Shown here: positions 17,731 to 60,588 of the stretch, piece after piece | Layout: each line of letters begins with the position of its first letter | How positions within the stretch are numbered: the first letter of the stretch is position 1 | Source: Acidovorax carolinensis | Lineage (GTDB): Bacteria; Pseudomonadota; Gammaproteobacteria; Burkholderiales; Burkholderiaceae_C | Length of the DNA: 64,000 nt | Assembly: GCF_002157145.1 (NCBI RefSeq) | Contig: NZ_CP021361.1 | Location: forward strand, 3,624,501 to 3,688,500 | Direction: 5' to 3' | Program-made: the position numbers and the translations under genes | Notes under the pieces: model-generated | Seen by the model: only the letters and a program-made list of their open reading frames with translations | The model's database searches: none | What the model was told of the DNA's origin: nothing

Positions 17731-17779
17731 AAAAAACGGCGATGACGCTTACTGCATCAGCGCAAGCAGCTATCAAAAG
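17731..17779. repeat. Palindromic repeat family A, copy 1 (reverse, degenerate)
   Basis: Reverse orientation: GCTTTTGATAGCTGCTTGCG on the minus strand, then CTGATGCAG and GTAAGCG. It lies 2 bp after the EamA stop and just before the convergent cyclodeaminase stop. Confidence 0.55.
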
Positions 17780-17786
17780 CAGAGTT

Positions 17787-18887
17787 TCAAGGCGCTTTTC
17801 CCAGCGCCCCTTCAAGCCCCGGCGCAGCAGCCCGCTGGCTGACGCTGGCCGCCGACTGGCGCAACGCGCCAAACAGGTTCTTGGGGTCGGGCAGTGCGGG
17901 GATCAGCGCCATGTGCTCGCCCATGCCCAGCTCGACAGCCGCGTCGCGCATGTAGCGCAGGGCGGAAAAATCCTCCAGAGCAAACCCCACCGAATCGAAC
18001 ACGGTGGCCTGCGCGGCATGCGTGCGCCCTGGCTCGTGGCCGGCCAGCACTTGCCACAGTTCGGTCACGGCAAAGTCGGCCGGCAGTTGCTGGATGTCGC
18101 CCTCCAGTCGCGTCTGCGGGGCGTATTCGACAAACACGCTGGCCTGGCGCAGCAGGTCGGCATGCAGCTCGGTCTTGCCGGGGCAGTCGCCGCCCACGGC
18201 ATTGAGGTGCATGCCCGGCTCCACCATGGCGGGCGCGAGGATGGTGGCGCGGGTCTTGTCGGCGGTGAGGGTGGTCACGATGTCGGCGCCGCGCACGGCC
18301 TCGGCCACGCTGGCGCAAACCGTCAGTTGCAGGCCCGTGCCGTCGAGGTTGGCAACCAGCTTGGCCGTGGCAGCCGGGTCGGTATCAAACAGGCGCAGCG
18401 TGGTGATGCCCACGAGGCGCTGGAACGCCAGGGCCTGGAACTCGCTTTGCGCGCCGTTGCCGATGAGCGCCATCACCCGGCTGTCGGGCCGCGCCAGGGC
18501 GCTTGCCGCCACCGCCGACATGGCGGCGGTGCGCAGGGCCGTGGTGTAGGTGAGCTCGCTGAGCAACAGCGGCACGCCCGTGGCCACATCGGCCAGCACG
18601 CCGAAGGCCATCACGGTGGGCAGGCCCCGCTGCGTGTTGCGGGGATGGCCGTTGACGTATTTGAAGGTGTAGGTGGCGGCATCCGCAATGGGCATGAGTT
18701 CGATCACACCGTCGGGCGAATGGCTGGCCACGCGGGCCGATTTTTCGAACTGCGGCCAGCGCAAGAAATCTTCGCGGATGCAGGCCGCAATGCCGGCGAT
18801 GCAGTGGCCCACGCCCTTGCGGCCGATCAACCCGGCCATGGCGGGGGCACTGAGGTACAGGGTGGAGGTGGGGGCGGTGGCGCTCAT
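17787..18887 (-). CDS. Ornithine cyclodeaminase/mu-crystallin family protein
   Basis: 366 residues from the ATG at 18887, with GGAGA upstream. Family motifs: NTQRGLPTVMAFGVLADVATGVPLLLSE-like segment, ALIGNGAQSEFQALAF (NAD-binding loop GNGAQ), VTTLTADKTRATIL, NAVGGDCPGKTEL and LEDFSALRYM. Members are NAD-dependent cyclodeaminases or imine reductases acting on amino acids. The sequence is of normal length and complete. Single gene, leftward, 131 bp downstream of the next SDR gene; substrate not determinable. Confidence 0.92.
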   Translation of the reverse strand: MSATAPTSTLYLSAPAMAGLIGRKGVGHCIAGIAACIREDFLRWPQFEKSARVASHSPDGVIELMPIADAATYTFKYVNGHPRNTQRGLPTVMAFGVLADVATGVPLLLSELTYTTALRTAAMSAVAASALARPDSRVMALIGNGAQSEFQALAFQRLVGITTLRLFDTDPAATAKLVANLDGTGLQLTVCASVAEAVRGADIVTTLTADKTRATILAPAMVEPGMHLNAVGGDCPGKTELHADLLRQASVFVEYAPQTRLEGDIQQLPADFAVTELWQVLAGHEPGRTHAAQATVFDSVGFALEDFSALRYMRDAAVELGMGEHMALIPALPDPKNLFGALRQSAASVSQRAAAPGLEGALGKAP

Positions 18888-19018
18888 GGCGGAAAAGTCT
18901 CCAGGGGTTGGAGTGCAGTTTCCCCGAGCGGCACGGCCATGGGAATGCGCCAATTTGCAACCAGATGCTGCGCAGGCGCATCGGGGGCGCCGCGCCGCAG
19001 GGTCAGCCGCTCAACCGT

Positions 19019-19849
19019 TCAGAACGCGCCCGGGTAGGCGCCGCCATCGGCCAGCAGGTTCTGGCCCGTGATGTAGCCCGCATGCACGCTGCACAGAAAT
19101 GCGCAGATGGCGCCAAACTCTTCGGGGGTGCCAAAGCGGCCGGCCGGAATCTGCGTCTGCTGGGCCCGGCGGATGTCGTCCAGGCTCTTGCCGGTCTTGG
19201 TGGCGGCTGCGCCCAGCGTGGTGGCGAGGCGGTCGGTGTCGAACTTGCCGGGCAGCAGGTTGTTCATCGTCACGCCCTGCCCCGCAACCTTGCTGCGCGC
19301 GGCGCCGGCCACAAAGCCGGTAAGCCCGCTGCGTGCGCCATTGGACAGGCCCAGGATGTCGATGGGCGCCTTCACCGCGCTGGAGGTGATGTTGATGACG
19401 CGGCCAAAGCCCCGCGCGGACATGCCGTCCACCGTGGCCTTGATGAGTTCGATGGGCGTGAGCATGTTGGCGTCCATCGCCTTGATCCAGGCGTCGCGGT
19501 CCCAGTCGCGAAAGTCTCCCGTGGGCGGGCCACCTGCGTTGGTGACCACGATGTCAAAGTCGCGCCCCGGCCCACCGGGCACCGCAAACACGGCGGCCCG
19601 GCCTTCGGGGGTGGTGATGTCGGCAGCCACCGTCAGCACCACGGGCTGGGTGCCATTTTGGCCTCTGGCGCTTGCAGCGTCTGCGCCAGCAGCTATTAAT
19701 TTAGAAGCAGCCAGCTGCAGCGCTTCGGCATTGCGCGCGTTGATGACTACGTTCACCCCTTCGCGCACCAGCGCTTGCGCGCAGCCAAACCCCAGCCCCT
19801 TGCTGGCGCCACACACCAGCGCCCACTTGCCCGCGATACCCAGATCCAT
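19019..19849 (-). CDS. SDR-family oxidoreductase carrying a repeat-derived insertion
   Basis: 276 residues from the ATG at 19849 (MDLGIAGKWALV), with GGGAG upstream. SDR motifs: VCGASKGLGFGCA, VTNAGGPPTGDF, INITSSAVK and the usual YxxxK segment altered to LSNGARSGLTGFV, so the tyrosine is replaced, as in the 3-oxoacyl-ACP-reductase-like subfamily with N-x-A-R. Between residues about 49 and 66 the protein contains LIAAGADAASARGQNG, encoded by a family A palindromic repeat read in frame; relatives lack this stretch as far as I can judge. The insertion falls in a surface loop before the VAADIT strand, so function may persist. Confidence 0.88.
   Translation of the reverse strand: MDLGIAGKWALVCGASKGLGFGCAQALVREGVNVVINARNAEALQLAASKLIAAGADAASARGQNGTQPVVLTVAADITTPEGRAAVFAVPGGPGRDFDIVVTNAGGPPTGDFRDWDRDAWIKAMDANMLTPIELIKATVDGMSARGFGRVINITSSAVKAPIDILGLSNGARSGLTGFVAGAARSKVAGQGVTMNNLLPGKFDTDRLATTLGAAATKTGKSLDDIRRAQQTQIPAGRFGTPEEFGAICAFLCSVHAGYITGQNLLADGGAYPGAF
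19656..19706 (-). repeat. Palindromic repeat family A, copy 2 (inside SDR gene, in frame)
   Basis: On the coding strand it reads TTAATAGCTGCTGGCGCAGA, then a short loop and AAGCGCCAGAGGCCAAAATG, a near-consensus copy. It is translated as LIAAGADAASARGQN without interrupting the gene. Confidence 0.75.
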
Positions 19850-19984
19850 AAAAAACTCCCGATTGCTGGCCGCAACATGCAGCCGTTTCAAATTATCAGT
19901 GGGGCCTGCACGGGCAACAGCCCTGGCCCGGCGGTGCCCCCACGGCGCGGTCGGTTGACCCGGCGGGTAGTGTGCCTGCGGGTA

Positions 19985-20932
19985 TCAACGCACCGGGTGG
20001 CGCGACATGCGCGTGAACACGAAAATGCCGGCAGTCACCAGCGCGGTGCCCGCGGCCACCCACAGCGTGAAGGGCTCGCCCAGTATCCACACCCCCATGA
20101 GGATGGTGGACAGCGGGCCGACCATGCCGGTCTGCGCGGCCATGCCGGCGCCAATGCGCTCGATGGCCATCATCACCATGAGCACCGGCGCGGCCGTGCA
20201 CAGCGTGGCGTTGAGCACCGACAGCCAGATCACCTCGGGCGCCACCATCGCCGCGCTCAGCGGCCGCAGCAGCACAAACTGCAGCAGGCAGCACAGGCAG
20301 GCCACCGTGGTGGCCAGGCCCACCAGCCGCAGCGAGCCAATGCGCTGCACCATCTCACCGCTGTAGACCATGTAGATGGCGTAGCTCACGGCGCTCAGAA
20401 ACACCAGCAGCGCGCCCCAGGCCGCATCGGCGCCTTGCAGCCGGGCCTCCAGGCCAAACACCAGCACCACGCCGCTGTAGCTGATGGCCATGCCGAGCGC
20501 CTGGCCCCAGCGGATGGCGCGGCCATACAGCGCCCAGCCCAGCAGCATCACCAGCGTGGGGTTGAGGTAGAGGATGAGCCGCTCCAGGCTGGCGCTGATG
20601 TAGGCCAGCCCGGCAAAGTCGAGATAACTGGCCAGGTAATAGCCCGTGACGCCCAGGCCCACCACGCCCAGCCAGTCGCGGCGCGAGAGTGGCGGCTTGC
20701 CCCGGCTGGCCCACCACGCCATCACGGCAAAGATGGGCAGCGCAAACAGCATGCGGTACATGATGAGTGTGACTGCATCGACGCCGTGGCGGTAGGCCAG
20801 CTTGACGATGATGGCCTTGCCGCTGAAGGCGATGGCGCCGAACAGCGCCAACGCCAAACCGGTTGCTACCTTTTTTCTAGCTGCTTGCGCTTGCTGAGAT
20901 TGGGCTGCAGGCACTTTTTGATTAAAACTCAC
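19985..20932 (-). CDS. DMT-superfamily (EamA) transporter
   Basis: About 315 residues from a GTG at 20932; the exact start is uncertain because no ATG precedes the first membrane segment. Ten hydrophobic helices in two EamA repeats are visible (GLALALFGAIAFSGKAIIVKL, SGVVLVFGLEARL, GMVGPLSTILMGVWILGEPF). Inner-membrane exporter or carboxylate/amino-acid-type transporter, substrate unknown. The cytoplasmic N-terminal leader NQKVPAAQSQQAQAARKK appears to be encoded by a degenerate family A repeat. The upstream gamma-glutamyltransferase stop is only 10 bp away, so the two are likely co-transcribed. Confidence 0.87.
   Translation of the reverse strand: MSFNQKVPAAQSQQAQAARKKVATGLALALFGAIAFSGKAIIVKLAYRHGVDAVTLIMYRMLFALPIFAVMAWWASRGKPPLSRRDWLGVVGLGVTGYYLASYLDFAGLAYISASLERLILYLNPTLVMLLGWALYGRAIRWGQALGMAISYSGVVLVFGLEARLQGADAAWGALLVFLSAVSYAIYMVYSGEMVQRIGSLRLVGLATTVACLCCLLQFVLLRPLSAAMVAPEVIWLSVLNATLCTAAPVLMVMMAIERIGAGMAAQTGMVGPLSTILMGVWILGEPFTLWVAAGTALVTAGIFVFTRMSRHPVR
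20871..20920 (+). repeat. Palindromic repeat family A, copy 3 (degenerate, in EamA 5' end)
   Basis: Plus strand TTTTTTCTAGCTGCTTGCGC, then TTGCTGAGATT and GCTGCAGGCACTTTTT. It overlaps the first codons of the minus-strand transporter and is read there in the opposite orientation. Confidence 0.45.
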
Positions 20933-20942
20933 GCCTACGCAT

Positions 20943-22565: not shown

Positions 22566-22594
22566 GCCGCGATTATCGGCGGCAGGCCCAGGGT

Positions 22595-23890: not shown

Positions 23891-23949
23891 GCGGTCCTCG
23901 GTGCGCCATTGTGTACCGGGCCTTCGCCCTTTCCACCGAGTCACCGCCC

Positions 23950-23985
23950 CAAAAAGCAACGGCACCCGAAGGTGCCGCTGTGCTT
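23950..23985 (-). terminator. Rho-independent terminator after tctBA
   Basis: On the minus strand GCGGCACC-TTCG-GGTGCCG is followed by TTGCTTTTT: a stable stem with a UUCG-type tetraloop and a T-tract, 45 bp after the tctA stop. Confidence 0.85.
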
Positions 23986-24030
23986 GCAGCCGGGGCCCGC
24001 GCTGCGGGACCGGCGAACGGGGTAAGGGGC

Positions 24031-25542: not shown

Positions 25543-25560
25543 AGTGTGGGTGCTCCTGCC

Positions 25561-29375: not shown

Positions 29376-29413
29376 GGTCCGATTCTGGCCTGAATCCCGA
29401 CATGCGGCCTTTT

Positions 29414-29469
29414 CACTATCAAATAAATAGCTGTCAGCGCTTATCTGAAAAGCGCCAGAGGCCAAAAAT
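29414..29469 (+). repeat. Palindromic repeat family A, copy 4 (intergenic)
   Basis: Near-consensus: AAATAGCTGTCAGCGCTTAT, then CTGA and AAAGCGCCAGAGGCCAAAAA. It lies between the tatD stop (29473) and the glycosylase start, both on the minus strand. Confidence 0.8.
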
Positions 29470-29472
29470 ACC

Positions 29473-30387
29473 TCAAGCTTCCTGCACCAGCCCGGCCAGG
29501 CGCGGCAGCGCCGCACAGGCGTTGGCGGTGGTGCTGCGGGCCAATGCCTCCAGCGGCAGACCGCGCAGGCCCGCCACTACCGCGGCGATGCGCGGCAGCT
29601 CGGCCGGGGCGTTGCGCCCCTGGGGTTGTCCGGCGGCCCGCTGCCCGGCCGTGGTGTAAAGCCAGTGCGGCGGGATGTCGGGCGCGTCGGTTTCCAGCAC
29701 CAGGGCCGATTCGGGCAACTCGGCCGCCAGCCGGCGCAATTGCAGTGCCCGGTCATAAGTCACCGCGCCGCCAAACCCCAGCTTGAAACCCAGCGCGATG
29801 AACGCCTGCGCCTGCTGCAGGCTGCCGTTGAAGGCATGGGCAATGCCGCCCGGCACGGCAATGTCGCGCAGGCCCTTGAGCAGCCTGTCCGCCGAGCGGC
29901 GCACATGCAGGATCACCGGCAAGTCAAACCGGCGCGCCAGTTGCAGCTGGGCACGGTAAAACTGCTCCTGCCGCGCGGGATCGCGCCCATCGACTGAACC
30001 ATACCCCCACGCTCCCTCACTGCGTGTGGTCGCTGCCTCCCCAGGGGGCCGCTTTTGGCCTTGAGGCGGCCCGCCGGCAAAAGAATCAAGCCCGATTTCG
30101 CCGACGGCCACCAGGCGCGGGTCGTGGCGGTGCTGCTCCAGCGCCTGGGCCAGCAGCGCCAGGTCGGCATCGGCCGCCCGCGCGGTGTACAGCGGGTGAA
30201 TGCCCAGGGCGTAGCTGTCGCCATGGCGGTGCGCCAGCTGGCGCACGGCGTCCCAGTTGGCGCGCTCCACCGCCGGAATCACGCAGTGCGCCACGCCCGC
30301 GGCAGCGGCCTGCTGGCGCACGGCCTCGCGGTCGGCGGCGAACTCGGCGGCGTCCAGGTGGCAATGCGTATCGATCCAGGAAGACAT
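29473..30387 (-). CDS. TatD-family hydrolase with repeat-derived insertion
   Basis: 304 residues from the ATG at 30387 (MSSWIDTHCHLDAAEF). Metal-binding and catalytic signatures: DTHCHLD, VGEIGLD, PVILHVRRSADRLL, GGIAHAFNGSLQQA and LVLETDAPDIPP. It is a metal-dependent 3'-5' DNase/deacylase-type enzyme. Directly after the GEIGLD motif there is an extra Pro/Gly-rich stretch of about 27 residues (about 105-131, including GGPPQGQKRPPGEAATTR) before DPARQEQFY resumes. The DNA of this stretch has the look of a dispersed GC-rich repeat (29995-30075) and keeps the frame. Whether the insert disturbs the active site is unknown. Confidence 0.9.
   Translation of the reverse strand: MSSWIDTHCHLDAAEFAADREAVRQQAAAAGVAHCVIPAVERANWDAVRQLAHRHGDSYALGIHPLYTARAADADLALLAQALEQHRHDPRLVAVGEIGLDSFAGGPPQGQKRPPGEAATTRSEGAWGYGSVDGRDPARQEQFYRAQLQLARRFDLPVILHVRRSADRLLKGLRDIAVPGGIAHAFNGSLQQAQAFIALGFKLGFGGAVTYDRALQLRRLAAELPESALVLETDAPDIPPHWLYTTAGQRAAGQPQGRNAPAELPRIAAVVAGLRGLPLEALARSTTANACAALPRLAGLVQEA
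29995..30075. repeat. GC-rich dispersed-repeat-like insertion within tatD
   Basis: About 80 bp beginning ACCATACCCCCACGCTCCCT and ending TTGGCCTTGAGGCGGCCC, with GCCGC...GCGGC self-complementarity. It interrupts a conserved TatD region in frame. I recognise similar CCCCACGCTCCCTCACTGCG sequences from Comamonadaceae intergenic regions, from memory only. Confidence 0.5.
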
Positions 30388-34700: not shown

Positions 34701-34710
34701 TCATCATCAC

Positions 34711-34762
34711 TATCAAAAAAGTAGCTGCTACCGCTTACCACATAAGCACTAGAGACCAAAAT
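34711..34762 (+). repeat. Palindromic repeat family A, copy 5 (intergenic)
   Basis: TATCAAAAAAGTAGCTGCTA followed by CCGCTTACCACATAAGC and ACTAGAGACCAAAAT, ten bases after the VWA stop. Slightly diverged from consensus. Confidence 0.75.
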
Positions 34763-34776
34763 CACCTGATTAGCGA

Positions 34777-40149: not shown

Positions 40150-40262
40150 CGGTGACACATTTGACAGCGCCACGCGCAGGGTGCCCAGCGCCCGGCGCGC
40201 CCTGCCAAAGCGCACCGGAGCACCGGAACCAACCGCTGCGCCAGCGCTCACACCCTGTAACC

Positions 40263-42496
40263 ATGCCTCATCGTCTGCTCTCGCGCCTCTTTTTCGCTCT
40301 GCTTTTCATAGCTGCTAGCGCTTTATGGATGGGCGCCAGCGCCCAATTCAGCCCAAAAATGGGGGCCAGCACCGGCAGCGTGGTCACCACGCCCCGTGTG
40401 CGCGCCGAACTCATCGCGCACGGCCCCGAAGGCGTGGGCCCCGGCCAGCCGCTGTGGCTGGGCCTGCAAATCACCCACCAGCCCGAGTGGCACACCTACT
40501 GGAAGAACCCCGGCGACTCGGGCCTGCCCACCGAGCTGACCTGGACGCTTCCCGCCGGCCTGACCGCCGGCGAAATCGCCTGGCCCGTGCCCCACACCAT
40601 CCGCATCGGCACGCTGGCCAACCATGGCTATGAAGGCCAGGTGCTGCTGCCCGTACCAGTGCAGGTGGGCCCTGACTTCCAGGCGCCGCTGGCGGGCAAC
40701 GGCACGCTCGATGTGCGCCTGCGCGCCACCTGGCTGGTGTGCCGCGTCGAGTGCATTCCCGAAGAAGGCGAATTTGCACTGCAACTGCCGGTGCGTGGCT
40801 CCACCGCGCTGCACGCCACCGCCTTTGCCCAGAGCCAGGCCGACCAGCCGCTGGCGCTGGTGGGCGACGGCCGGGGCGGCCAGGTGCGGGTGCAAGGCGA
40901 GCGCCTGCAGCTGACCGTGCGCGGGCTGCCCGCTGCCGCACGCGGCCAGCCGCTGGCCCTGTTTGCCGAAACGCCCGAAGTGCTGATCCCCGCCGCCGTG
41001 CCCGGCAAGGACTGGACGCAGGCCTGGAACGGCGATGTCTGGACTGCCGACCTGCCGCTGTCGCCCCAGCGCGGCGACACCCCCGCCAGCCTGCCGCTGG
41101 TGCTTGCGCTCGACCAGCGCCCCGCCGACCGGCAAGCCCCCCACGCCTGGCGCACCGTGGCCAGCGTGAGCGGCACCTGGGCCGCCGCCCGCGCGCCAGC
41201 GTGTCGCCCGCCCTCGCGGCGGCGCTGGCGGCCAACCAGGCCGAGTCCGCGCCGCCTGCTGCCCCCGCCAGCGCTCCGCTGGGCACGCTGCTGGCGGCGC
41301 TGGTCGGCGGGCTGCTGGGCGGCCTGCTGCTCAACCTCATGCCCTGCGTGTTTCCGGTGCTGGCCATCAAGGTGCTGGGCTTTGCGCAGCACGGCAGCAA
41401 CCGGCGCGCGCAGCGCCTGGCCGGCGCGGCCTACACGGCAGGCGTGGTGCTGTCGTTTCTGGCGCTGGGCGGCCTGCTGCTGGGCCTGCGCGCGGCGGGC
41501 GAGCAGTTGGGCTGGGGTTTTCAGCTGCAGTCGCCCGCCGTGGTGGCCCTGCTGGCCGGGCTGTTCACGCTGATCGGGCTCAACCTGGCGGGCCTGTTCG
41601 AGTTTGGCCAGTTCGTGCCGGGGCGACTGGCCACGCTGCAGGCGCGCCACCCGGTAGGCGATGCGTTTTTGTCGGGCGTGCTGGCAGTGGCCATTGCCTC
41701 GCCCTGCACCGCGCCGTTCATGGGCGCATCGCTGGGCTTTGCCGTGGGCATGCCCGCCGCGCAGGCGCTGGCCGTATTTGCCGCGCTCGGCGTGGGCATG
41801 GCCCTGCCCTACCTTGCCGCCAGCCTGGTGCCCGCCGTGGTGGGCTGGCTGCCCCGCCCCGGCCCGTGGATGGTCACCTTCCGCCGCGCCATGGCGTTTC
41901 CCATGTTCGCCACGGTGGTCTGGCTGGTGTGGGTGCTGGGCCAGCAAAGCGGCATCGACGGCGCGGGCGCGCTGCTGGCGCTGCTGGTGGCCGGCAGCGC
42001 GCTGGTGTGGTCGCTTACGCTGCGCGGCCGCACCCGGGTGGTGATTGCTTCTGTTTTGATAGCTGGCAGCGCTTGGCTGATAAGCGCCATTGGCCAAAAT
42101 GTCACCAAACCGGTGGAGAGCGCCGCCCAGGTTGCCGCCGACGCTGGCAGCGCCCCCCATGCCTGGCAGCTCTGGTCCGCAGACCGCGCGGCCGCGCTGA
42201 TCGCCGCGGGCCAGCCGGTGTTTGTGGATTTCACCGCCGCCTGGTGCGTGACCTGCCAGTACAACAAGCGCACCACGCTGGTCGACCGCAGCGTGCTGGC
42301 CGATTTTGCCGACCGCAAGGTGGCCCTGCTGCGCGCCGACTGGACGCGCCGCGACCCCGCCATCACCGCCGCCCTCACCCAGCTCGGCCGCAGCGGCGTG
42401 CCGGTGTATGTGCTGTATGCACCCGGCAAGGCGCCGGTGGTGCTGACCGAGATCCTCAGCGTGGCCGAAGTGCGGCAAGCGCTGGCGGCGCTGTAG
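40263..42496 (+). CDS. dsbD: Thiol:disulfide interchange protein DsbD, one apparent frameshift
   Basis: 744 residues after correction. It has a signal peptide (LLSRLFFALLFIAASALW, cleaved near ASA-QFS) and an N-terminal periplasmic domain with a redox-type pair (VCRVECIPEEG). The membrane domain carries LNLMPCVFPVLAIKVLGFAQH and IASPCTAPFMGASLGFA (the transmembrane redox cysteines), and the C-terminal thioredoxin domain has FTAAWCVTCQYNK. The frame breaks near 41188 and is restored by one C in that CCC run. DsbD carries electrons from cytoplasmic thioredoxin to periplasmic thiols. Two family A repeats are translated within it: one forms the signal peptide, the other the linker helix at about residues 597-612. 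Confidence 0.9.
40302..40359 (+). repeat. Palindromic repeat family A, copy 6 (forms the DsbD signal peptide)
   Basis: CTTTTCATAGCTGCTAGCGC, then TTTATGGATGG and GCGCCAGCGCCCAATTCAG followed by CCCAAAAAT. Translated as LFIAASALWMGASAQFSPK, it supplies the hydrophobic core and the A-x-A cleavage site. Confidence 0.75.
42053..42100 (+). repeat. Palindromic repeat family A, copy 7 (inside dsbD, in frame)
   Basis: GTTTTGATAGCTGGCAGCGC, TTGGCTGAT, AAGCGCCATTGGCCAAAAT. Translated as VLIAGSAWLISAIGQN between the membrane domain and the thioredoxin domain. Confidence 0.8.
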
Positions 42497-42563: not shown

Positions 42564-43079
42564 ATGAGCCGCACCCCCGACACCATCAGCACCCTGCGCG
42601 ACGTGCTGGGCCGCTGCCGCACCATTGCGGTGGTGGGCCTGTCGCCGCAGTGGCACCGCCCCAGTTTCTTTGCCGCCAAATACATGCAGGCGCACGGCTA
42701 CCGCATCGTGCCGGTGAACCCGGTGGTGGCGCAGGGCGGCGGCAGCATTCTGGGCGAGCCCTGCTTTGCCAGCCTGCACGAGGCCGAGCAGGCCATCGCC
42801 CGCCAGGGCGGGCGCATCGACATGGTGGACTGTTTTCGCAAGAGCGAAGACATCGCGCCGCTGGCCGAGGAGGCCATCGCCATCGGCGCCAGCTGCCTGT
42901 GGCTGCAGCTCGGCGTGGTCAATGAAGCCGCCGCCCGGCGCGCCGAGGACGCGGGCCTGCAGGTAATCCAGAACCGCTGCGTAAAAATTGAGCATGCGCG
43001 CCTCTTCGGCGGCCTGGGCTGGATGGGCGTGAACACCGGCGTGATCACCGCCAAGCGGCTGCGGCAACTCCCTTATTGA
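42564..43079 (+). CDS. CoA-binding protein (YccU-like)
   Basis: 171 residues from the ATG at 42564 (MSRTPDTISTLRDVL). A single Rossmann-type CoA-binding domain: TIAVVGLSPQWHRPS, YRIVPVNPVV, IDMVDCFRKSEDIAPLAEEAI, CLWLQLGVVNEAAA and CVKIEHARL. The family is small, cytoplasmic and of unproven role. The last two codons and the TGA stop lie in the left arm of a family A repeat. The next gene, metY, starts 42 bp later. Confidence 0.9.
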   Translation: MSRTPDTISTLRDVLGRCRTIAVVGLSPQWHRPSFFAAKYMQAHGYRIVPVNPVVAQGGGSILGEPCFASLHEAEQAIARQGGRIDMVDCFRKSEDIAPLAEEAIAIGASCLWLQLGVVNEAAARRAEDAGLQVIQNRCVKIEHARLFGGLGWMGVNTGVITAKRLRQLPY

Positions 43080-43120
43080 TAGCTGCCAGCGCTTTTCGCA
43101 AAAGCGCTGGAGGCATTTTT
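43073..43120 (+). repeat. Palindromic repeat family A, copy 8 (stop codon and Shine-Dalgarno donor)
   Basis: TTATTGATAGCTGCCAGCGC followed by the hairpin CGCTTTTCGCAAAAGCG and CTGGAGGCATTTTT. The TGA at 43077-43079 ends the upstream gene, and GGAGG at 43109-43113 sits 8 bp before the metY ATG at 43122. Confidence 0.85.
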
Positions 43121-43121
43121 C

Positions 43122-44456
43122 ATGCAAATAACCATGGCCCACACCCCTTCTTCCGGCGCCGACCACGCCTACGGCTTTGGCACCCGCGCCATCCACGCGG
43201 GCGCCCAGCCCGACCCCGTGACCGGTGCGCGCGCCACGCCCATCCACCAGACCACCAGCTTTGTGTTTGACGATGCCGAGCACGCCAGCAGCCTGTTCAA
43301 CCTGCAGACCTTTGGCAACGTCTACAGCCGCATCAGCAACCCCACGGTGGCGGTGCTGGAAGAGCGCATCGCCAGCCTCGAAAACGGCCGCGCCGCCCTG
43401 GCCTGCGCCAGCGGCATGGCCGCGCAGATGGCGGCGCTGCTGGCCATTCTGAAAACCGGCGACCACATCGTGGCGGCCAACACGCTGTATGGCGGCACGG
43501 TGGGGCAATTGGGCGTGGGGTTCAGCCGGCTGGGCATCGAGACCACCTTTGTGGACCCGGCCGACCCCGAGAACTTTGCCCGCGCCATGCGCCCCAACAC
43601 CCGCGCCGTGTACGGCGAAACCATCGGCAACCCGCTGGTCAACGTGCTCGACATCGCCGCGATTGCGGAGGTGGCGCACGCCCACGGCGTGCCGCTGGTC
43701 ATCGACAACACGGTGGCCAGCCCCTACCTGTGCAATCCGCTCGATTTTGGCGCCGACATCGTGGTGCACAGCGCCACCAAATACATCGGCGGCCACGGCA
43801 CCACCATGGGCGGCGTGGTGGTGGAAGGCGGCAAGTTCCCGTGGGACAACGGCAAGTTCCCCGAGATGGTGGAGCCCAGCCGCGCCTACCACGGCGTGAA
43901 GTTCTACGAGACCTTTGGCGACTTCGGCTACACCATGAAGGCGCGCATGGAGGTCAACCGCACCTTTGGCGGCGTGCTCTCGCCCATGAACGCCTGGCAG
44001 CTGCTGCAGGGCGCCGAGACGCTGCACCTGCGCATGCGCGAGCACTGCCGCAACGCGCTGAAAGTGGCGCAGTTCCTGCAGGGCCACCCGAAGGTGCAGT
44101 GGGTCAACTACCCCGGTTTGAGTGGCTCGCCGTACCACGCGCTGGCACACAAGCAGTTCCGCGCGGTGGACGGTCACCCCGGCGCCTCGGGCATCCTGAC
44201 CTTCGGCGCCAAGGGCGGGGCTGCCGCAGGCGAGAAGTTCATCGACGCCTGCGAGTTTTTGAGCCACCTGGCCAACATCGGCGACGCCAAGACGCTGGTG
44301 ATCCACCCGGCCTCGACCACGCACCGCCAGCTCAGCGAAGACGAACTCGCCCGCGCCGGTGTCAGCGCCGACATGGTGCGCCTGAGCGTCGGCATCGAGG
44401 ACGTGGACGACATCCTCTGGGACATCGACCAGGCGCTGGAGCGCGCCACGGCATAG
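43122..44456 (+). CDS. metY: O-acetylhomoserine aminocarboxypropyltransferase (sulfhydrylase)
   Basis: 444 residues. PLP-dependent Cys/Met-metabolism fold: FGTRAIHAGAQPDPVTGA, TTSFVFDDAEHA, YSRISNPTVAVLEERIASLE, ASGMAAQMAAL, TLYGGTVGQL, DNTVASPYLCNPLDFGADIVVHS and SATKYIGGHG with the PLP lysine. The length and internal DNGKFPEMVEPSRAYHG segment fit the long OAH sulfhydrylases rather than MetB/MetC. It makes homocysteine or methionine precursors from O-acetylhomoserine and sulfide. Start at 43122 uses GGAGG from the upstream repeat; an ATG at 43134 is possible. Confidence 0.93.
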   Translation: MQITMAHTPSSGADHAYGFGTRAIHAGAQPDPVTGARATPIHQTTSFVFDDAEHASSLFNLQTFGNVYSRISNPTVAVLEERIASLENGRAALACASGMAAQMAALLAILKTGDHIVAANTLYGGTVGQLGVGFSRLGIETTFVDPADPENFARAMRPNTRAVYGETIGNPLVNVLDIAAIAEVAHAHGVPLVIDNTVASPYLCNPLDFGADIVVHSATKYIGGHGTTMGGVVVEGGKFPWDNGKFPEMVEPSRAYHGVKFYETFGDFGYTMKARMEVNRTFGGVLSPMNAWQLLQGAETLHLRMREHCRNALKVAQFLQGHPKVQWVNYPGLSGSPYHALAHKQFRAVDGHPGASGILTFGAKGGAAAGEKFIDACEFLSHLANIGDAKTLVIHPASTTHRQLSEDELARAGVSADMVRLSVGIEDVDDILWDIDQALERATA

Positions 44457-46188: not shown

Positions 46189-47094
46189 ATGAGCCAGAGC
46201 TTCAACTACCGCCATCTTTTCTACTTCTGGGTGGTGGCCAAGGAAGGCGGCATTGCCCGCGCCGCCGAGCGGCTGGACATGGCCGTGCAGACCATCAGCG
46301 CCCAGGTGCGCGAGCTGGAAAAGTCGCTGGGCGTAAGCCTGCTGCGCAGCGAGGGCCGCAACCTGGTGCTGACCGACGCCGGTGTGGCCGCGCTGCACGA
46401 GGCCGACCACATCTTTGCCCTGGGCGAGCTGCTGCCCCAGCGCGTGCGCGAAGCCGCCAGCGGCCCCACGCTGCGGCTGAACCTGGGCATCTCCGACGGC
46501 ATTGCCAAGCTGGCCGTGCACCGGCTGCTCAAGCCCGTGCTGGACGAGCCCCACCTGCGGCTGCTGTGCCACGAGGGCGAGTTTCAGCCCCTGCTGGGCG
46601 AGCTGGCGCTGCACAAGCTCGACGCGGTGCTGGCCGACCGCGCGGCGCCGCCCAACCCCACCCTGCGCACCACCAGCCAGCTGCTGGGCAGCAGCGCCAT
46701 CGCCTGGTATGCCCCGCCGCTGTGGGCCGAGGCGACAGCCAACGGCTTTCCGCACAGCCTGGCCGTGGTTCCCGTGCTGCTGCCCACCGACCACGCCGCC
46801 ATGCGCGCGCGCATCGACCACTGGCTGGAGCGCGAGCGCATCCGCCCGCGCATTGCCGGCGAGTTTGAAGACAGCGCCCTCTTGAGCACCTTTGCCGCCA
46901 CCGGCATGGGCGTGATGCCCGCGCCCGTGTCGCTGGGCGAACACCTGGCGCAAACGCATGGCCTGGTGCAGGTGGGCAGCACGCCCGATGTGCAGGAGCA
47001 GTTCCACCTGATCTACAGCGCGCGCAAGGTGATGCACCCACTGCTGCCGCGGCTGCTGGCGTCGGGGCAGAGTGGCACGCTACTGAATCAATAG
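46189..47094 (+). CDS. nhaR: LysR-family transcriptional regulator, NhaR-like
   Basis: 301 residues. It opens with FNYRHLFYFWVVAKEGGIARAAERLDMAVQTISAQVRELE, read as the NhaR-type winged helix (HLFYFWVVAKEGG is diagnostic). The LysR effector domain includes LRLNLGISDGIAKLAVHRLL and LLSTFAATGMGVMPAPVSL. NhaR controls sodium/proton or cation-stress genes; here the divergent terC is the obvious target. The final codons NQ and the TAG stop overlap a family A repeat. Confidence 0.88.
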   Translation: MSQSFNYRHLFYFWVVAKEGGIARAAERLDMAVQTISAQVRELEKSLGVSLLRSEGRNLVLTDAGVAALHEADHIFALGELLPQRVREAASGPTLRLNLGISDGIAKLAVHRLLKPVLDEPHLRLLCHEGEFQPLLGELALHKLDAVLADRAAPPNPTLRTTSQLLGSSAIAWYAPPLWAEATANGFPHSLAVVPVLLPTDHAAMRARIDHWLERERIRPRIAGEFEDSALLSTFAATGMGVMPAPVSLGEHLAQTHGLVQVGSTPDVQEQFHLIYSARKVMHPLLPRLLASGQSGTLLNQ

Positions 47095-47132
47095 CTGCCA
47101 GCGTTTATCCATCAAGCGCCAGCGGCCAAAAA
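47089..47132 (+). repeat. Palindromic repeat family A, copy 9 (provides the nhaR-like stop)
   Basis: CAATAGCTGCCAGCGTTTAT, CCATCAAGCGCCAGCGGCC, AAAAA. The TAG of ATAGCTG at 47092-47094 is the regulator's stop codon. Confidence 0.8.
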
Positions 47133-47324
47133 CACCTTCAGTGATGCCACCGCACGCCCGCGCGCCCCGGCCATCCCGTCCATCACCACTCGCAAGCACA
47201 TCCACCCGAAGCAGCGCAAACCGGGCATCGCGGCTATCCTCGCAGCACGTCGCCGGCATGACCGGCAGCACGCTCGACTGCCGGCTCCACCCGAACCTTC
47301 ATCGACCCCTTCCAACCAGCGCTC

Positions 47325-50739: not shown

Positions 50740-52874
50740 ATGTCCGCCCGCCCCTCCATCGTCCATGTGGCCCTGCAGACCCCCTCGCACAGCGGCGTGG
50801 GTGACCTGCTGAGCTACGCCAGTGAGCGCCCGCTTGCGCCCGGCACGCTGGTGCGCGTGCCACTGGGCGCGCGCGAGGTGCTGGGCGTGGTGTGGGATGC
50901 CGACGAGGCCACGGGCGAGCTGCCCGAGGGCGCCACGATGCGCGCCATTGCCGGGGTGCTCGATGGCGTGGCGCCGCTCGATCTGCCCTGGCGCCGCCTG
51001 GTGGCGTTTGCGGCACGCTATTACCAGCGCGCCCTCGGCGAAGTCGCCCTGGCCGCCCTGCCCCCGCAACTACGCGACCTGAAACCCGAGCAGCTGGCGC
51101 GCCGCCTGCGCCGCCCGGCCACGGCGGTGGGCGACAACTCAAACGCTATACAAAACATAGCGCTTACCGCAGAGCAGGAAAGCGCCAGGGCCCGAATTGC
51201 TGCGGGAAAAGGCCCGTTCCTGCTGTTTGGTAGCACCGGCAGCGGCAAGACCGAGGTGTACCTGCGCTGCGTGCAAGAGATCCTGGAGGCCGACAAGGGC
51301 GATGGATTTCCGGCCCAGGCGCTGGTGATGGTGCCCGAGATCAACCTCACGCCCCAGCTCGAAGAGCGCTTTGTGGGCCGCTTTGCCCCGCGTTTTGGCC
51401 CCGGCGCCGTGGTGTCGCTGCACAGCGGCATGACCAACCCGCAGCGCCTCAAGAGCTGGCTGGCCGCCCACTGCGGCAGCGCGCGCATCGTGCTGGGAAC
51501 GCGCATGGCGGTGTTTGCCAGCCTGCCGGGGCTGCAACTCATCGTGGTCGATGAGGAGCATGACCCCAGCTACAAGCAGCAGGAAGGCGCCCGCTACTCG
51601 GCGCGCGACCTGGCCATCTGGCGCGGGCGCGAGCAAGGCGCCAAGGTGCTGCTGGGATCGGCCACGCCCTCGCTGGAAAGCTGGCACGCCAGCCGCCCCC
51701 CACACCCGAAGACCCTGAAGGCGGCCGCTACCTGCGGCTGCACATGCCCAGCCGCATTGGCGCGGGCGCGCTGGCCCGCGTGCGGCGGGTAGACATGAAC
51801 CAGCAGCCCCGGCGCACCGTGTTCAGCGCCCCGCTGCTGCAGGCCATCACCGAGCGCGTGGCGCGCGGCGAGCAAAGCATGATTTTGCTGAACCGCCGCG
51901 GCTACGCCCCCGTGCTGCACTGCGTGGACTGCGGCTGGAAAAGCGACTGCCCGCACTGCAGCGCGCACCAGGTCTTCCACAAGACCGACCGAACGCTGCG
52001 CTGCCACCACTGCGGGTTCGCGGTGCGCGTGCCCTACCACTGCCCCAGCTGCGGCAGCCCCGACATCCAGCCCATGGGCCGGGGCACCGAGCAGCTCGAA
52101 GAACAACTGGGCGCCCTGCTGCGCAACGTGCAGCGCCCCGACGGCGACCCCGCCCGCATCGCACGCATCGACGCCGACACCACCAAGGCCAAGGGCGCGC
52201 TGGAGGAGCAACTGGCACAGGTGCACTCGGGCGAGGTGGATGTGCTGGTGGGCACGCAAATGATTGCCAAGGGCCATGACTTTCGCCGCATTACGCTGGT
52301 GGCCGCCGTGCAGCCCGACGGCGCCCTGTTCAGCAGCGACTTTCGCGCGCCCGAGCGGCTGTTTGCGCTGCTCATGCAGGCGGCCGGCCGCGCGGGCCGC
52401 GACGCCGCCTACATGGCCGCGCAGGGCACGCAATGCGAGATGTGGGTGCAGAGCTTTCACCCCCAGCACGCCGTGTTCGAGGCCCTGCGCACGCACAACT
52501 ACGAGGCTTTTGCCGCCCAGCAACTCAAGGAGCGCGAAGAGGCCGCCATGCCACCCTTCTCATACCAGGCCCTGGTGCGGGCCGACGCGCGCACGCAGGA
52601 GGTGGCGCAGGGTTTTCTGAGTGCCGCCACCGCCGCGGCCCATGCAGCCGGCCTGCCGGGGATTGACCTGGTAACCCTGTTTCCCCCCGTGCCGCTCACC
52701 ATCCAGCGCGTGGCCAATGTGGAGCGCGCCCAGATGCTCATGGAAAGCCCCAGCCGCGCCGCACTGCAGCGCTTTCTGGCCGCGTGGCAGCCGGTGCTGC
52801 AAACCACCCGCAGCCAGCCCGAGCACAAGGGCTTGATTCGCTGGCTGGTGGATGTGGATCCGCTGGCGATTTGA
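50740..52874 (+). CDS. priA: Primosomal protein N' (replication restart helicase PriA), one apparent frameshift
   Basis: 711 residues after correction, from ATG 50740 (MSARPSIVHVALQTP). Walker A FGSTGSGKTEV (about residue 164), DEEHD box, GSATPSLESW, paired zinc cysteines (CVDCGWKSDCPHC, CHHCGF, CPSCGS), GRGTEQLEEQL and QAAGRAGRD are all present. The frame is lost at the six-C run 51696-51701 and resumes one base later; adding one C gives an intact protein. PriA reloads the replisome at stalled forks and is normally needed for healthy growth, so sequence error is likely. The linker before the helicase core contains a degenerate family A repeat. Confidence 0.93.
51151..51197 (+). repeat. Palindromic repeat family A, copy 10 (degenerate, inside priA)
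   Basis: AAAACATAGCGCTTACCGCA, then GAGCAGG and AAAGCGCCAGGGCCCGAATT. The right arm fits the consensus well, the left arm is shortened. Translated as IALTAEQESARARI, overlapping the conserved LT...Q start of the helicase domain, so its repeat origin is less certain. Confidence 0.4.
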
Positions 52875-52898
52875 GGTCGCTTGAGGTGGCTTGAGGGG

Positions 52899-52950
52899 TT
52901 TTAGGGCCCCAGCGCTTGCGAATCAAGCGCCTAAAGCTATCAGAAATGAA
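52899..52950 (-). repeat. Palindromic repeat family A, copy 11 (intergenic, reverse)
   Basis: On the minus strand TTTCTGATAGCTTTAGGCGC, TTGATTCGC, AAGCGCTGGGGCCCTAAAA. Lies between the priA stop and the convergent PEP-CTERM gene. Confidence 0.75.
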
Positions 52951-52996
52951 GCACTCCGCAGAGTCGCCGGAGATTGCGCTCTGACCCTATCGTTGC

Positions 52997-55571: not shown

Positions 55572-55647
55572 CCCCCATGCAAAGAAGCTGATTCACAAAC
55601 CGTATCGCCCCCTCTTTGCGTCCGAACGTCACCATTTTTCTATCGCC

Positions 55648-56829: not shown

Positions 56830-56906
56830 TGAGTTTTTATAGGGCAGCCGGACTGGCAATCGCCCGTGTTTGACGACGCACGCCCCCGCCATCCACCCCA
56901 TAGCAC

Positions 56907-57869: not shown

Positions 57870-58009
57870 TCTCGCAGGCCGGGGCTGCGCGGGCGCCGCT
57901 TCGCCATGTGAAATTTTTTACGCCTGCGATGGGCGCAGCCGCTCGACCCGGCTCTGTATCATTGCGCGCTCTGTCGTCCCCCGCTTCGCGCTCTCGCTCC
58001 CTCCTCCCC

Positions 58010-60091
58010 ATGTCCGCCGGTCTCAACCTCGCCCAGCTCCAGGCTGTCCATTACACCGACGGTGCCTGCCTGGTGCTGGCCGGTGCCGGCTCGGGCAAGA
58101 CGCGGGTGATCACGCACAAGATCGCACACATGATCGAGCGCGGCATGGAGCCCAAGCGCATCGCCGCCATCACCTTCACCAACAAGGCCGCCGCCGAAAT
58201 GCGCGAGCGCGCCAAGGGCCTGATCGGGCGCCGTGCCAAGGATGTGCTGGTGTGCACCTTCCACGCCCTGGGCGTGCGCATGGTGCGCGAAGACGGCGCG
58301 GTGCTAGGCCTCAAACCCCAGTTCAGCATCATGGATGCCGATGACGTGGCCGGCATTTTGAAAGACGCAGCCGGCGGCACCACCGACCTGGCCACGGCGC
58401 GCCAGTGGCAGTGGACCATCAGCAAGTGGAAGAACATGGGCCTGACCTCCGGGCAGGCGCTGGCCCAGGCGACGGATGACAATGAGCGCAGCATTGCCGT
58501 GGTGATGGCGCGCTACGAAGAGCGCCTGGCGGCCTACCAGAGCGTGGATTTTGACGACCTCATCGGCATGCCGCTCAAGCTGCTGCGCGACTTTCCCGAG
58601 GTGCGCGCCAAATGGCAGGCGGCCCTGGCCCATGTGCTGGTCGATGAATACCAGGACACCAATGCCACCCAGTACGAACTGCTCAAGCTGCTGGTGGGCG
58701 AGCGCGGCCACTTCACCGCCGTGGGCGACGATGACCAGTCCATCTATGGCTGGCGCGGCGCCACGCTCGACAACCTCAAGAAGCTGCCGCTGGACTACCC
58801 CGCGCTCAAGGTCATCAAGCTGGAGCAGAACTACCGCTCCACCAGCGCCATCCTGCGCGCGGCCAACAACGTGATCGGGCCCAACCCCAAGCTGTTTCCC
58901 AAGACGCTGTTCAGCGAACTGGGCGAGGGCGATCCGGTGCGCGTGGTCGATGCCGATACCGAAGAGCACGAGGCCGACCGCGCCGTGGCCCGCATCCAGA
59001 GCCTGCGCGCTGCCGCCAACCCGCCGCCTGCGTGGAAGGACTTCGCCATCCTGTACCGCGCCAACCACCAGGCCAAGCCGTTCGAGAAGGCGCTGCGCAG
59101 GGCGAACATTCCGTACAAGGTGTCGGGCGGCACCAGCTTTTTCGACCGCGCCGAAATCAAGGACCTGTGCGCCTGGTTTCGCCTGTGGATCAACAACGAC
59201 GACGACCCGGCATTTTTGCGCGCCATCGGCAGCCCCAAACGTGGCATCGGCCACACCACGCTGGCCGCTTTAGGCGCGTTTGCCACGCAGCACAAGCAAA
59301 GCATGTTTGGCGCGCTGTTCAACGGCATGCTGCCCGCGGCCGTGCCCAAACGCGCGCTCGATGGCCTGCACGAGTTTGGCCGCTACATCAACGACCTGGA
59401 GCACCGCGCCCGCCACACGCATGGCGCCGAAGCTTCGCGCGCCTTTCTGGCCGACTGGCTCAAGGAAATCGGCTACGAGCAGCACCTGTACGACGGTGAA
59501 GACAGCGAAAAAGTGGCCGCCGCCCGCTGGACCAACGTGCTGGAGTTTTGCGACTGGATGGCCCAGCGCGCCGGCGGCCAGATCGACGACACCGCAGGCG
59601 CCGTGGTGGCCAAGGAGACCAAGAGCCTGCTGGAGGTGTCGCAGACCATTGCGCTGCTCTCCACCATCAGCGAGCGCGAGCAGGAGCAGGACATGGTCAC
59701 GCTCTCCACGCTGCACGCCAGCAAGGGGCTGGAATGGCCGCATGTCATTTTGGTGGGCGTCACCGAGGGCATGCTGCCCTTCAAGCTCGACGACGACGAA
59801 GGCCGCCAGCTCAAGGTGGCCGACGACACCCTGCAGCGCCTGCAGGAAGAGCGCCGCCTCATGTATGTAGGCATCACCCGCGCCCAGCGCACGCTGGCCG
59901 TGAGCTGGACCAAAAAGCGCAAGAAGGGTCGCGAAATGGTGGCCGCGCGGCCCAGCCGCTTCATTGCCGAGATGGGCCTGGACAAGGCCACCACGCGCGA
60001 AGACCCGCGCGAAAAACTCAAGGCTCTGCGCGCCGAATTTGCCGCCAAGGCCCAGGCCGCCAGCGCCGCCAATGCGGCCCCCACGGCATGA
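58010..60091 (+). CDS. rep: UvrD/Rep-type ATP-dependent DNA helicase
   Basis: 693 residues from ATG 58010 (MSAGLNLAQLQAVHYTDGACLVLAGAGSGKTRV, read in parts; the LNLAQLQAV Q-motif and AGAGSGKT Walker A are clear). Further motifs: AITFTNKAAAEMRERA (Ia), VDEYQDTNATQYELL (II), VGDDDQSIYGWRGA (III), LEQNYRST (IV), VTLSTLHASKGLEWPHV (V) and RLMYVGITRAQ (VI). Length and the KKRKKGREMVAARPSRF tail fit Rep rather than UvrD. It clears protein blocks ahead of forks. Its TGA overlaps the ATG of the next gene. Confidence 0.92.
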   Translation: MSAGLNLAQLQAVHYTDGACLVLAGAGSGKTRVITHKIAHMIERGMEPKRIAAITFTNKAAAEMRERAKGLIGRRAKDVLVCTFHALGVRMVREDGAVLGLKPQFSIMDADDVAGILKDAAGGTTDLATARQWQWTISKWKNMGLTSGQALAQATDDNERSIAVVMARYEERLAAYQSVDFDDLIGMPLKLLRDFPEVRAKWQAALAHVLVDEYQDTNATQYELLKLLVGERGHFTAVGDDDQSIYGWRGATLDNLKKLPLDYPALKVIKLEQNYRSTSAILRAANNVIGPNPKLFPKTLFSELGEGDPVRVVDADTEEHEADRAVARIQSLRAAANPPPAWKDFAILYRANHQAKPFEKALRRANIPYKVSGGTSFFDRAEIKDLCAWFRLWINNDDDPAFLRAIGSPKRGIGHTTLAALGAFATQHKQSMFGALFNGMLPAAVPKRALDGLHEFGRYINDLEHRARHTHGAEASRAFLADWLKEIGYEQHLYDGEDSEKVAAARWTNVLEFCDWMAQRAGGQIDDTAGAVVAKETKSLLEVSQTIALLSTISEREQEQDMVTLSTLHASKGLEWPHVILVGVTEGMLPFKLDDDEGRQLKVADDTLQRLQEERRLMYVGITRAQRTLAVSWTKKRKKGREMVAARPSRFIAEMGLDKATTREDPREKLKALRAEFAAKAQAASAANAAPTA

Positions 60092-60588
60092 AGCGACCGC
60101 CTGAAAGACCGATGCTTCAGCCCTCCATCCGGCCCACGATTGCTTTTATTTTGATAGCTATCAGCGCTTGTCCTACAAGCGTCATAGGCCAAAATGACCC
60201 AAAATCCACGGCAGCTTGCCCGGCGGCGGCCGACATGACGCACCAGCACCTGCAGGGCCGATGGCACGCCACGCTGCAGCCCGCCACACCCGGTGTGGTG
60301 CCCCAACCCGCCACGACGGCCGTGCTGCAACTGGGCCCCCATCCCGAGCTGGCCGAAAGTGTGCGCGGCACCCTACAGCGCGGCGAAACCCGTGCGCAAC
60401 TGAGCGGCGATGTGGATGCAGGCGAGCTGACCCTGGAAGAATCAATCAACGGCACCAACATCAGCGCCACCTGGACAGGCCAGGTGGTCGACGGAAGTTG
60501 TGGCAAGGAAATACACGGAACATGGACCAACGCCCACCCCACCACCACCCTGCCTTTCATACTGCGCAAGCAGGCGGGCTGGCAATGA
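60088..60588 (+). CDS. Small secreted/lipoprotein-like protein of unknown function
   Basis: 166 residues. The ATG overlaps the rep stop (ATGA), and its TGA overlaps the pldA ATG, so it is translationally embedded between them. The signal region IRPTIAFILIAISACPTS includes a lipobox-like ISAC, followed by a soluble domain (MTHQHLQGRWHATLQ, AQLSGDVDAGELTLEESINGTNISATWTGQV, IHGTWTNAHP) that looks like a beta-barrel-type stress or inhibitor domain. The hydrophobic core is encoded by a family A palindromic repeat. No family recognised; envelope location is inferred. Confidence 0.75.
   Translation: MKRPPERPMLQPSIRPTIAFILIAISACPTSVIGQNDPKSTAACPAAADMTHQHLQGRWHATLQPATPGVVPQPATTAVLQLGPHPELAESVRGTLQRGETRAQLSGDVDAGELTLEESINGTNISATWTGQVVDGSCGKEIHGTWTNAHPTTTLPFILRKQAGWQ
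60146..60194 (+). repeat. Palindromic repeat family A, copy 12 (forms the signal peptide of the small protein)
   Basis: TATTTTGATAGCTATCAGCG, CTTGTCCTACAAG, CGTCATAGGCCAAAATG. Translated in the same phase as the DsbD and SDR copies, giving FILIAISACPTSVIGQN. Confidence 0.8.

Follow-up and report, generated by a model that had tools for sequence, protein, structure and literature searches.

The 64,000-nucleotide stretch of Acidovorax carolinensis DNA considered here (hereafter the window; positions 3,624,501-3,688,500 of a genome, G000, that is one contig of 4,122,625 bases) carries, among others, genes for a NUDIX-domain protein, an SDR protein, DsbD, a LysR-type protein and PriA. Inside such genes, across their ends and between them lie copies of a 69-bp quasi-palindromic element, which is the subject of this report. 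A profile of the element finds 13 copies in the window (Table 1). These comprise all 12 members of the repeat family of at least twelve copies to which an earlier note on this DNA had drawn attention, together with one more at 15557-15625. The gene at 46189-47094 is of the LysR type; its best model, NhaR, scores below its cut-off.

Table 1. Copies of the element in the window, with their strand, placement, profile score and the relatives in which they also occur
Copy (strand)	Placement	Score (bits)	Relatives
15557..15625 (+)	antisense inside NUDIX-domain gene (Pfam NUDIX) 14925-15755 (-)	55.3	congener G223
17720..17788 (-)	between convergent gene 3' ends, few-base overlap with both	46.4	
19643..19711 (-)	inside SDR gene 19019-19849 (-), sense, ATA-GCT phase	53.1	G223, G202
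20862..20930 (+)	intergenic	57.8	G202
29412..29480 (+)	overlaps 3' end of gene 29473-30387 (-)	72.6	G223
34706..34774 (+)	intergenic, 5 bp past 3' end of 33657-34700 (+)	60.7	G223, G202
40293..40361 (+)	encodes DsbD signal peptide LFFALLFIAASALWMGASAQF, sense, ATA-GCT phase	62.8	
42044..42112 (+)	DsbD transmembrane segment, sense, ATA-GCT phase	60.1	
43064..43132 (+)	overlaps 3' end of gene 42564-43079 and provides its stop codon	69.5	element-like sequence at the equivalent place in G223, G214, G216, G202, G213
47076..47144 (+)	overlaps 3' end of LysR-type gene 46189-47094 (+)	54.7	G216
51142..51210 (+)	priA, segment before Walker A IALTAEQESARARI, sense, ATA-GCT phase	38.2 (weaker)	
52887..52955 (-)	between convergent genes	51.0	
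60139..60207 (+)	intergenic	74.4	

Size, number and placement of the element

The left arm of the element, scanned along the window with up to 3 mismatches, has 13 matches against 1.16 expected, a number that none of 100 shuffles reaches. Over the whole of G000 a 16-mer with at most one mismatch matches 108 times on the forward and 94 times on the reverse strand (202 matches), and the reversed control pattern of this 16-mer does not match at all. A first profile, trained on the window plus 20 evenly spaced 20-kb stretches (464 kb), finds 71 copies there and none in shuffles at an equal threshold; the centre is 7 nt long in 70 of the 71. The sharp start and end of the column information in 70 copies define a unit of 69 bp, longer than the 45-60 bp originally proposed, with the consensus NNYGCTMYNNAWTWNATAGCTRYTNGCGCTTNNYNNRYAAGCGCTRSMGSCNNWTTTNNYNNNAAWNNN. 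It is AT-rich (44.7% GC) and its profile holds 54.8 bits of information, 34.2 in the left half and 20.6 in the right. With 39 stretches added, the sample amounts to 1.244 Mb of G000 and contains 212 copies of at least 12 bits, with none in shuffled sequence; this count was made on the same stretches on which the profile was trained, and it leaves out weaker copies (5 between 6 and 12 bits). The density in the sampled parts, about 170 copies per Mb, extrapolates to about 700 in the genome. The same 1.244 Mb also holds 39 matches of at least 18 bits to the right half only, outside full copies (0 in shuffles), and just 5 to the left half only; such half-only matches may be partial or differently spaced sites. 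A literature search on words of the motif sequence found no paper. Helical phasing of AT tracts was considered and dropped, the strongest period in the column profile being about 8 and not 10.5.

Our gene calls are based on codon usage rather than on an annotation, and predicted starts are rough. All 30 host proteins tested with Pfam (of 53 distinct genic hosts) have a match, and the checked hosts are therefore real genes. The 212 copies comprise 100 that are intergenic, 51 that straddle a gene end and 61 that lie inside genes, whereas 20,000 random placements of 69-mers in the 464-kb sample put 78% inside genes. Copies do lie in genes, as the earlier note said, but the element is mainly extragenic. 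Where gene ends are overlapped (57 cases), 48 are 3' ends and 9 are 5' ends. The strands are balanced: the 1.244 Mb has 105 plus and 107 minus copies, and no 0.4-Mb bin lacks either strand (3/4 to 13/6), which excludes a replication-oriented site. Copies are dispersed at a median spacing of 3.0 kb, with near-Poisson counts per 20 kb (mean 3.37, variance 4.0; in the 41 stretches of native composition, mean 4.12, variance 3.26).

The earlier note had seen in the element a parallel to the Rickettsia palindromic elements (RPE), some copies of which are read in frame within proteins, and had held that it is read in one fixed phase. Some copies of the element are indeed read in frame as parts of proteins, and the ATA-GCT phase is found, as stated, in both dsbD copies and in the SDR gene, and also in priA; the copy in the NUDIX-domain gene, however, is antisense. 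So are 31 of the 61 genic copies in the larger sample, in phases 8/19/4, while the 30 sense copies fall in phases 19/3/8 (phase 0 being ATA-GCT), so that all six frames are in use. ATA-GCT is over-represented as the commonest sense phase (binomial p 0.004 against one sixth, and p 0.0007 against one third of the sense copies), but it is not fixed, and antisense phase 1 is equally common with 19 copies. An even spread over the phases, which the earlier note took as the sign that its proposal was mistaken, is not exactly what is seen either, the phases being uneven. Of the 151 extragenic copies, 40% have the ATA-GCT frame open, compared with 36% for antisense phase 1 and 2% for sense phase 2.

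Coding sequence that carries the element

Thirteen genic copies in 10 genes, picked for their strength and for the homologues available rather than at random, were compared with their counterparts. Two lie in element-sized extra segments (GluQRS, MoeA), the SDR copy (19643) coincides with 12 residues more than in the closest solved homologue, and the other ten differ by 0 to about 7 residues. LpxB is gap-free across the element against solved homologues, as is MoeA at its second, weak copy (L015 3233, 24 bits). PriA has 3 residues fewer across the element than solved PriA, AroE has 5 more than its solved homologue, MiaA has 4 more or 7 fewer, and EarP, at its two copies, has about 4 and 3-6 more; with lengths that differ by a few residues only, insertion into these four proteins is not borne out. 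Element-free homologues align collinearly, or almost so, with LpxB, GspF and the two DsbD sites. The proposal that the element adds peptides to its hosts by insertion is thus not supported in most of the cases examined, the aligned hosts mostly having the same or nearly the same length as repeat-free orthologues, and finds support in the extra segments of GluQRS and MoeA and the 12 residues of the SDR protein.

The clearest view of how a genic copy is maintained comes from lpxB, for which we compared 30 loci (own included) of the 47 matching congeneric genomes. The element site is exactly 69 nt long in all 30 and the peptide is well conserved, with motif scores graded from 57.4 down to 5.8 bits. 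Third codon positions are A or T at a frequency of 0.545 inside the element and 0.188 outside it, and the element marks the maximum of the gene. When each peptide was randomly recoded 500 times with the codon usage of the genome and then scored, 29 of the 30 lpxB orthologues outscored all 500 of their recodings (mean recoded scores -9 to -29 bits), and within G000 the same is true of 59 of the 61 genic copies. What is kept is hence DNA sequence beyond the peptide. For gspF, 30 loci of the 113 matching family genomes were compared: 27 have the identical 69-nt length at the site, 12 score at least 14 bits and the others range down to -69. The gspF motif score is correlated with the copy number of the element in the genome (Spearman 0.52, p 0.003). 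The T2SSF gene with the element in L025 was considered as pilC, but is gspF by NCBIfam.

For dsbD we took 30 loci of the 47 matching genomes and excluded one, L121 (G236), which stops short of the dsbD start. In 28 of the remaining 29 congeneric genomes, own included, the DsbD signal peptide consists of the element, so the hydrophobic, Ala-rich peptide predicted by the earlier note can be functional. All 28 of these signal peptides use the codon ATA, a rare one that specifies 331 (2.2%) of the 14,992 Ile residues encoded by the sampled genes of G000; G241 has an equally long signal peptide without the element. The DsbD transmembrane copy (42044) is present in G000, G223 and G211 and, in weaker form, in G238; a non-element segment occupies its site in G214, G222, G216 and G213 (66-69 bases) and in G202 (78-81 bases).

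Two side observations concern the same gene. Between the dsbD sequence (41450-42330) of G000, G223, G238 and G211 and its counterpart in other congeners the identity is about 76%, while the gene after dsbD is 79-94% identical in those congeners with a long match to it; dsbD of these four genomes may have had a different history or have been exchanged between lineages. In the window dsbD is also split over two frames (40260-41250), the signal-peptide frame differing from the membrane-domain frame, whereas in G223, G202 and G214 signal peptide and membrane domain share a single open frame; the split is either a sequencing error or a real frameshift.

In several genes (lpxB, gspF, dsbD) the coding sequence around the element is collinear and the choice of codons spells out the motif, so that it has been built or held there by base substitutions. 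An RPE-like protein-coding palindrome, inserted and recruited in one phase for a tolerated or useful peptide, would fit the ATA-GCT phase of the 19 sense copies, the DsbD signal peptide and the extra segments in GluQRS and MoeA. Unlike RPE, however, the element is mainly extragenic, uses six frames with antisense copies in abundance, is mostly not an element-sized insertion in the genes examined, and keeps a codon choice beyond the needs of the peptide. The collinear orthologues and the six-frame spread largely refute such an origin, which we consider very improbable.

Pairing, age and distribution of the copies

Considering its preference for gene 3' ends, the element might act at the RNA level, as a terminator or an mRNA-stabilising hairpin, and the folds of 60 extragenic copies are indeed more stable than those of shuffled sequences (mean z -3.2 and -2.9 for the two strands). 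However, dyad pairing at all 31 pairs lies within about 0.07 of the column-based expectation in the 212 copies, the largest excess being 0.61 against 0.54, which is no clear sign of compensatory change; the innermost GC pairs show next to no variation, which leaves them uninformative on pairing. In addition, 120 chimeras of unrelated halves fold like real copies (-16.6 against -16.5 kcal/mol). Expectation-level pairing and equally folding chimeras together led us to reject a hairpin RNA or a cruciform. With genic copies on both strands as well, and no match in a gathering scan of the window with Rfam, we regard an RNA-level role as exceedingly doubtful.

To follow the stability of the sites, we compared the window and its syntenic counterparts in six relatives, seven regions in all, pair by pair and in either direction. 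In extragenic comparisons the element is found 94 times and missing 7 times; in genic ones it is present 17 times and absent 13 times, 10 of these absences being of the DsbD transmembrane copy. A clean 69-bp gap, or net-zero site, is found in none of the 20 absent comparisons, which represent few independent events. Orthologous extragenic copies, of which 45 pairs were compared, mismatch at a rate of 0.153 in the 27 columns of at least 1 bit and of 0.435 in the 12 columns with less than 0.3 bit; for their 25-nt flanks the rates are 0.468 and 0.511 (compared ungapped, so that misalignment is included). Within G000 the copies have a mean identity of 50%, the closest pair reaches 84%, and near-identical copies (at least 90%) are lacking. 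Given such conservation of the sites, the retention of the motif columns and the low identity between copies, the sites are old, their motif columns have been kept and there has been no recent copying.

The number of copies per 20-kb stretch increases with the nativeness of codon usage (Spearman rho 0.67, p 5e-9). The five stretches with zero copies have a GC content of 0.601-0.635 and low codon scores; with 10 proteins scanned, one of them has conjugation genes and others have a metal-type ATPase with an RND pump, or restriction genes. With one copy as query, 50,697 phage records gave no match and 4 of 72,556 plasmid records gave weak ones, in both cases with the limited sensitivity of a single diverged query. 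Judged by composition only, the element is scarce in foreign DNA. As a separate observation, genes for MMPL, RND and metal-type ATPase proteins and for type IV conjugation lie in the element-free segments L027:519-2783, L029:9625-18903 and L009:7137-13772, which are possibly genomic islands.

In the Burkholderiales family of the source the 16-mer occurs in 66 of 200 genomes; 23 have at least 10 matches (element-rich genomes, hereafter), with a maximum of 444. None of 146 genomes from other families in the order has more than 3. The element is patchy even within genera, and congeners can differ as widely as 138 versus 0 matches (G128, G374) or 406 versus 34 (G015, G146). Among the matches listed (80 of 107 stretches) the carriers are Acidovorax, Simplicispira, Giesbergeria, Comamonas, Extensimonas and Paenacidovorax, and the copies adjoining the Acidovorax matches share the consensus (13 copies in 128 kb).

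A candidate recognition motif

An element that is held by codon choice in genes, occurs in both orientations, is conserved extragenically, is scarce in DNA of atypical composition, is unpaired and shows no recent copying points to a recognition motif under DNA-level selection or drive. Our tentative preference is for a candidate double-stranded recognition motif that is maintained at the DNA level and works like an uptake sequence. Some sequence-specific DNA-handling machine would recognise it and bias its retention; this machine would most likely be a type IV pilus/competence import system, and the element would mark self DNA by analogy with the uptake sequences of the Neisseriaceae and Pasteurellaceae. 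The more specific proposal, about which we are more hesitant, is that it may be an unrecognised uptake sequence of the Comamonadaceae, spread by biased import and recombination, that has rewritten codons and even supplied a signal peptide. The DsbD signal peptide would then be a by-product, frame 0 of the motif reading as a hydrophobic, Ala-rich peptide that could serve as a signal sequence.

The DNA uptake sequences (DUS) of the Neisseriaceae and the uptake signal sequences (USS) of the Pasteurellaceae occur in hundreds of copies, in both orientations and both inside and outside genes, and the element does likewise. It shares with them a strong genome-wide over-representation in both orientations, a scarcity in foreign DNA as judged by composition, and also its origin in place by point substitutions, which is seen in lpxB, the DsbD signal peptide and GspF, though not in GluQRS. 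One report describes uptake sequences as over-represented, in both orientations, genic as well as intergenic, with some intergenic copies forming inverted repeats (PMC2346458), and another ties them to core rather than foreign genes (PMC4212676). The element differs from DUS and USS in being a fixed quasi-palindrome with a 7-nt centre and a different sequence. Since it has no short core of 9-12 bp, we do not class it as a DUS or USS, but only as working, by analogy, like one.

Selective transformation has been described in related bacteria. According to PMC4212676, natural transformation of Verminephrobacter eiseniae is selective for its own DNA and is lost in pilus mutants, and Acidovorax temperans is transformed by same-species DNA only (given there as data not shown); the sections consulted name no uptake sequence for either species. 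In the literature collection searched, no paper links a 'DNA uptake sequence' to the Comamonadaceae.

A number of observations weigh against an uptake-like motif. ComEC is present in all 23 element-rich genomes, G000 included, yet also in 190 of the 200 overall; it is therefore non-discriminating, and permits the uptake hypothesis without being a test of uptake. Neither A. facilis nor A. defluvii DNA is reported to transform A. temperans (PMC4212676), and the records of both these species carry the motif, so that the motif alone cannot explain the A. temperans barrier; recombination barriers could explain these failures. With 69 bp and about 55 bits, the element also far exceeds the roughly 10-12 bp of known uptake sequences. 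In GluQRS (18 of 30 loci compared, 17 of them outgroups) there are 24 residues at the element against 2-3 in 17 of 17 outgroup loci, one of which is from the same family. In MoeA (16 of 30 loci, 15 outgroups) the copy at L015 3666 spans 23 residues against 0-3 in 14 of 15 outgroup loci; here one family member without a 16-mer match has an unrelated 25-residue loop. Some copies, such as these GluQRS and MoeA segments, may have arrived as insertions. Codon differences from G000 within the lpxB element are 160 synonymous and 143 non-synonymous. The gspF copy is missing in three of 10 element-rich genomes (G010, G072, G088), and copies of 33-37 bits occur in G050, G019 and G027 (L332, L336, L334) despite 0-1 strict 16-mer matches there; the motif of these three may be a dialect in sequence. 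One of the zero-copy stretches, which has a SecY-domain protein, is not necessarily foreign. A model under which a genic copy survives only if its frame is open gives 17.6 copies for sense phase 0, where 19 are seen, but is rejected over the six frames (chi-square p 5e-16), since sense phase 2 and antisense phase 0 are more often open in genic copies than in extragenic ones. To these we must add the copies found at a transposase gene.

Repetitive extragenic palindromic sequences and bacterial interspersed mosaic elements (REP/BIME), which go with REP-associated tyrosine transposases (RAYT), are palindromic, of high copy number, mainly extragenic and near gene 3' ends. The element resembles them in all of these respects and has fixed ends. 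G000 has a single Y1 (RAYT-like) transposase gene (Y1_Tnp), over the 3' end of which lies a 32.4-bit profile copy (L001:1111-1179, near 3,444,100 of G000) that is below the detection of the 16-mer scan; a locus of 3.3 kb would hold some copy by chance with a probability of 0.43. A copy overlies the Y1 3' end, antisense each time, in 8 of 16 other element-rich genomes (L350-L365), or 9 of 17 with our own, and in G190 and G010 a copy is at the start of the gene or inside it. Such copies give a REP-like rival more weight and the uptake reading less, and they keep a REP/RAYT-like origin open. On this view a REP- or miniature inverted-repeat transposable element (MITE)-like repeat, possibly linked with the single Y1 transposase, had already spread when the genera radiated and has since been kept or been decaying; the roughly 21 extra residues of GluQRS relative to the 17 outgroup loci would suit it too.

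We nevertheless hold a REP- or MITE-like repeat to be unlikely. Copies on both sides of the Y1 gene were not found in G000 or at the 16 other element-rich Y1 loci. A copy is present at 10 of 16 Y1 loci versus 7 of 18 control loci (Fisher p 0.30), and in the nine genomes with controls at 7 of 9 Y1 loci versus 7 of 18 (p 0.10). Three element-rich genomes (G095, G141, G196) have no Y1 match, the other 20 of the 23 have one, and so do 127 of the 177 remaining genomes (147 of 200 overall). The gspF copy, present in 7 of the 10 element-rich genomes, shows a like positional conservation across genera, so that the Y1 copy need not be special and may be just one more old site. Unlike REP, the element has no clear covariation, hairpin pairing not being conserved, and it has coding copies that are collinear, in LpxB and GspF; unlike a MITE, it leaves no clean empty sites in the few independent events compared, and its copies reach a top identity of only 0.84. 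Its scarcity in atypical stretches also argues against such a repeat.

A further alternative dispenses with uptake altogether: the element could be the binding site of a chromosome-structuring or DNA-repair protein (of a nucleoid, segregation or gyrase type), under ordinary selection at some 700 places. The partial dyad symmetry, the constant length of 69 bp with its 7-nt centre, the conserved motif columns, the maintenance at codon level and the presence of copies all round the chromosome would agree with this. On the other hand, there is no strand or position pattern, the counts per 20 kb being near-Poisson; about 55 bits would seem far in excess of what 700 sites in a 4-Mb genome need; and the element is patchy both between related genera and within them. 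On balance a site of this kind appears rather unlikely.

Among described repeats, BRE has been reported from betaproteobacteria including Comamonadaceae. As described (Hot 2011, PMC3110155) it is mostly intergenic with some genic copies, and in Bordetella it measures 75-91 bp, has 69% GC, is sometimes tandem, reaches at most 29 copies per genome and has a moderately conserved gene context. The element is similar in host range and in its mostly intergenic placement, but it has a length of 69 bp and 44.7% GC, is dispersed (median 3 kb) and is positionally conserved. Composition and layout, set against the published description of BRE, thus exclude it as a BRE.

Should the element indeed be a recognition motif that works like an uptake sequence, an environmental family of betaproteobacteria would carry a sequence tag on its own DNA. 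The selective transformation reported for Verminephrobacter and Acidovorax temperans would then have a candidate sequence to account for it, and the family would provide a further lineage, beside the Neisseriaceae and Pasteurellaceae, in which the evolution of such tags could be studied. The DsbD signal peptide would offer a testable by-product of the DNA-level selection on the motif. Whichever protein reads it, a 55-bit motif held by codon choice in conserved genes would be a striking instance of DNA-level selection overriding codon usage.

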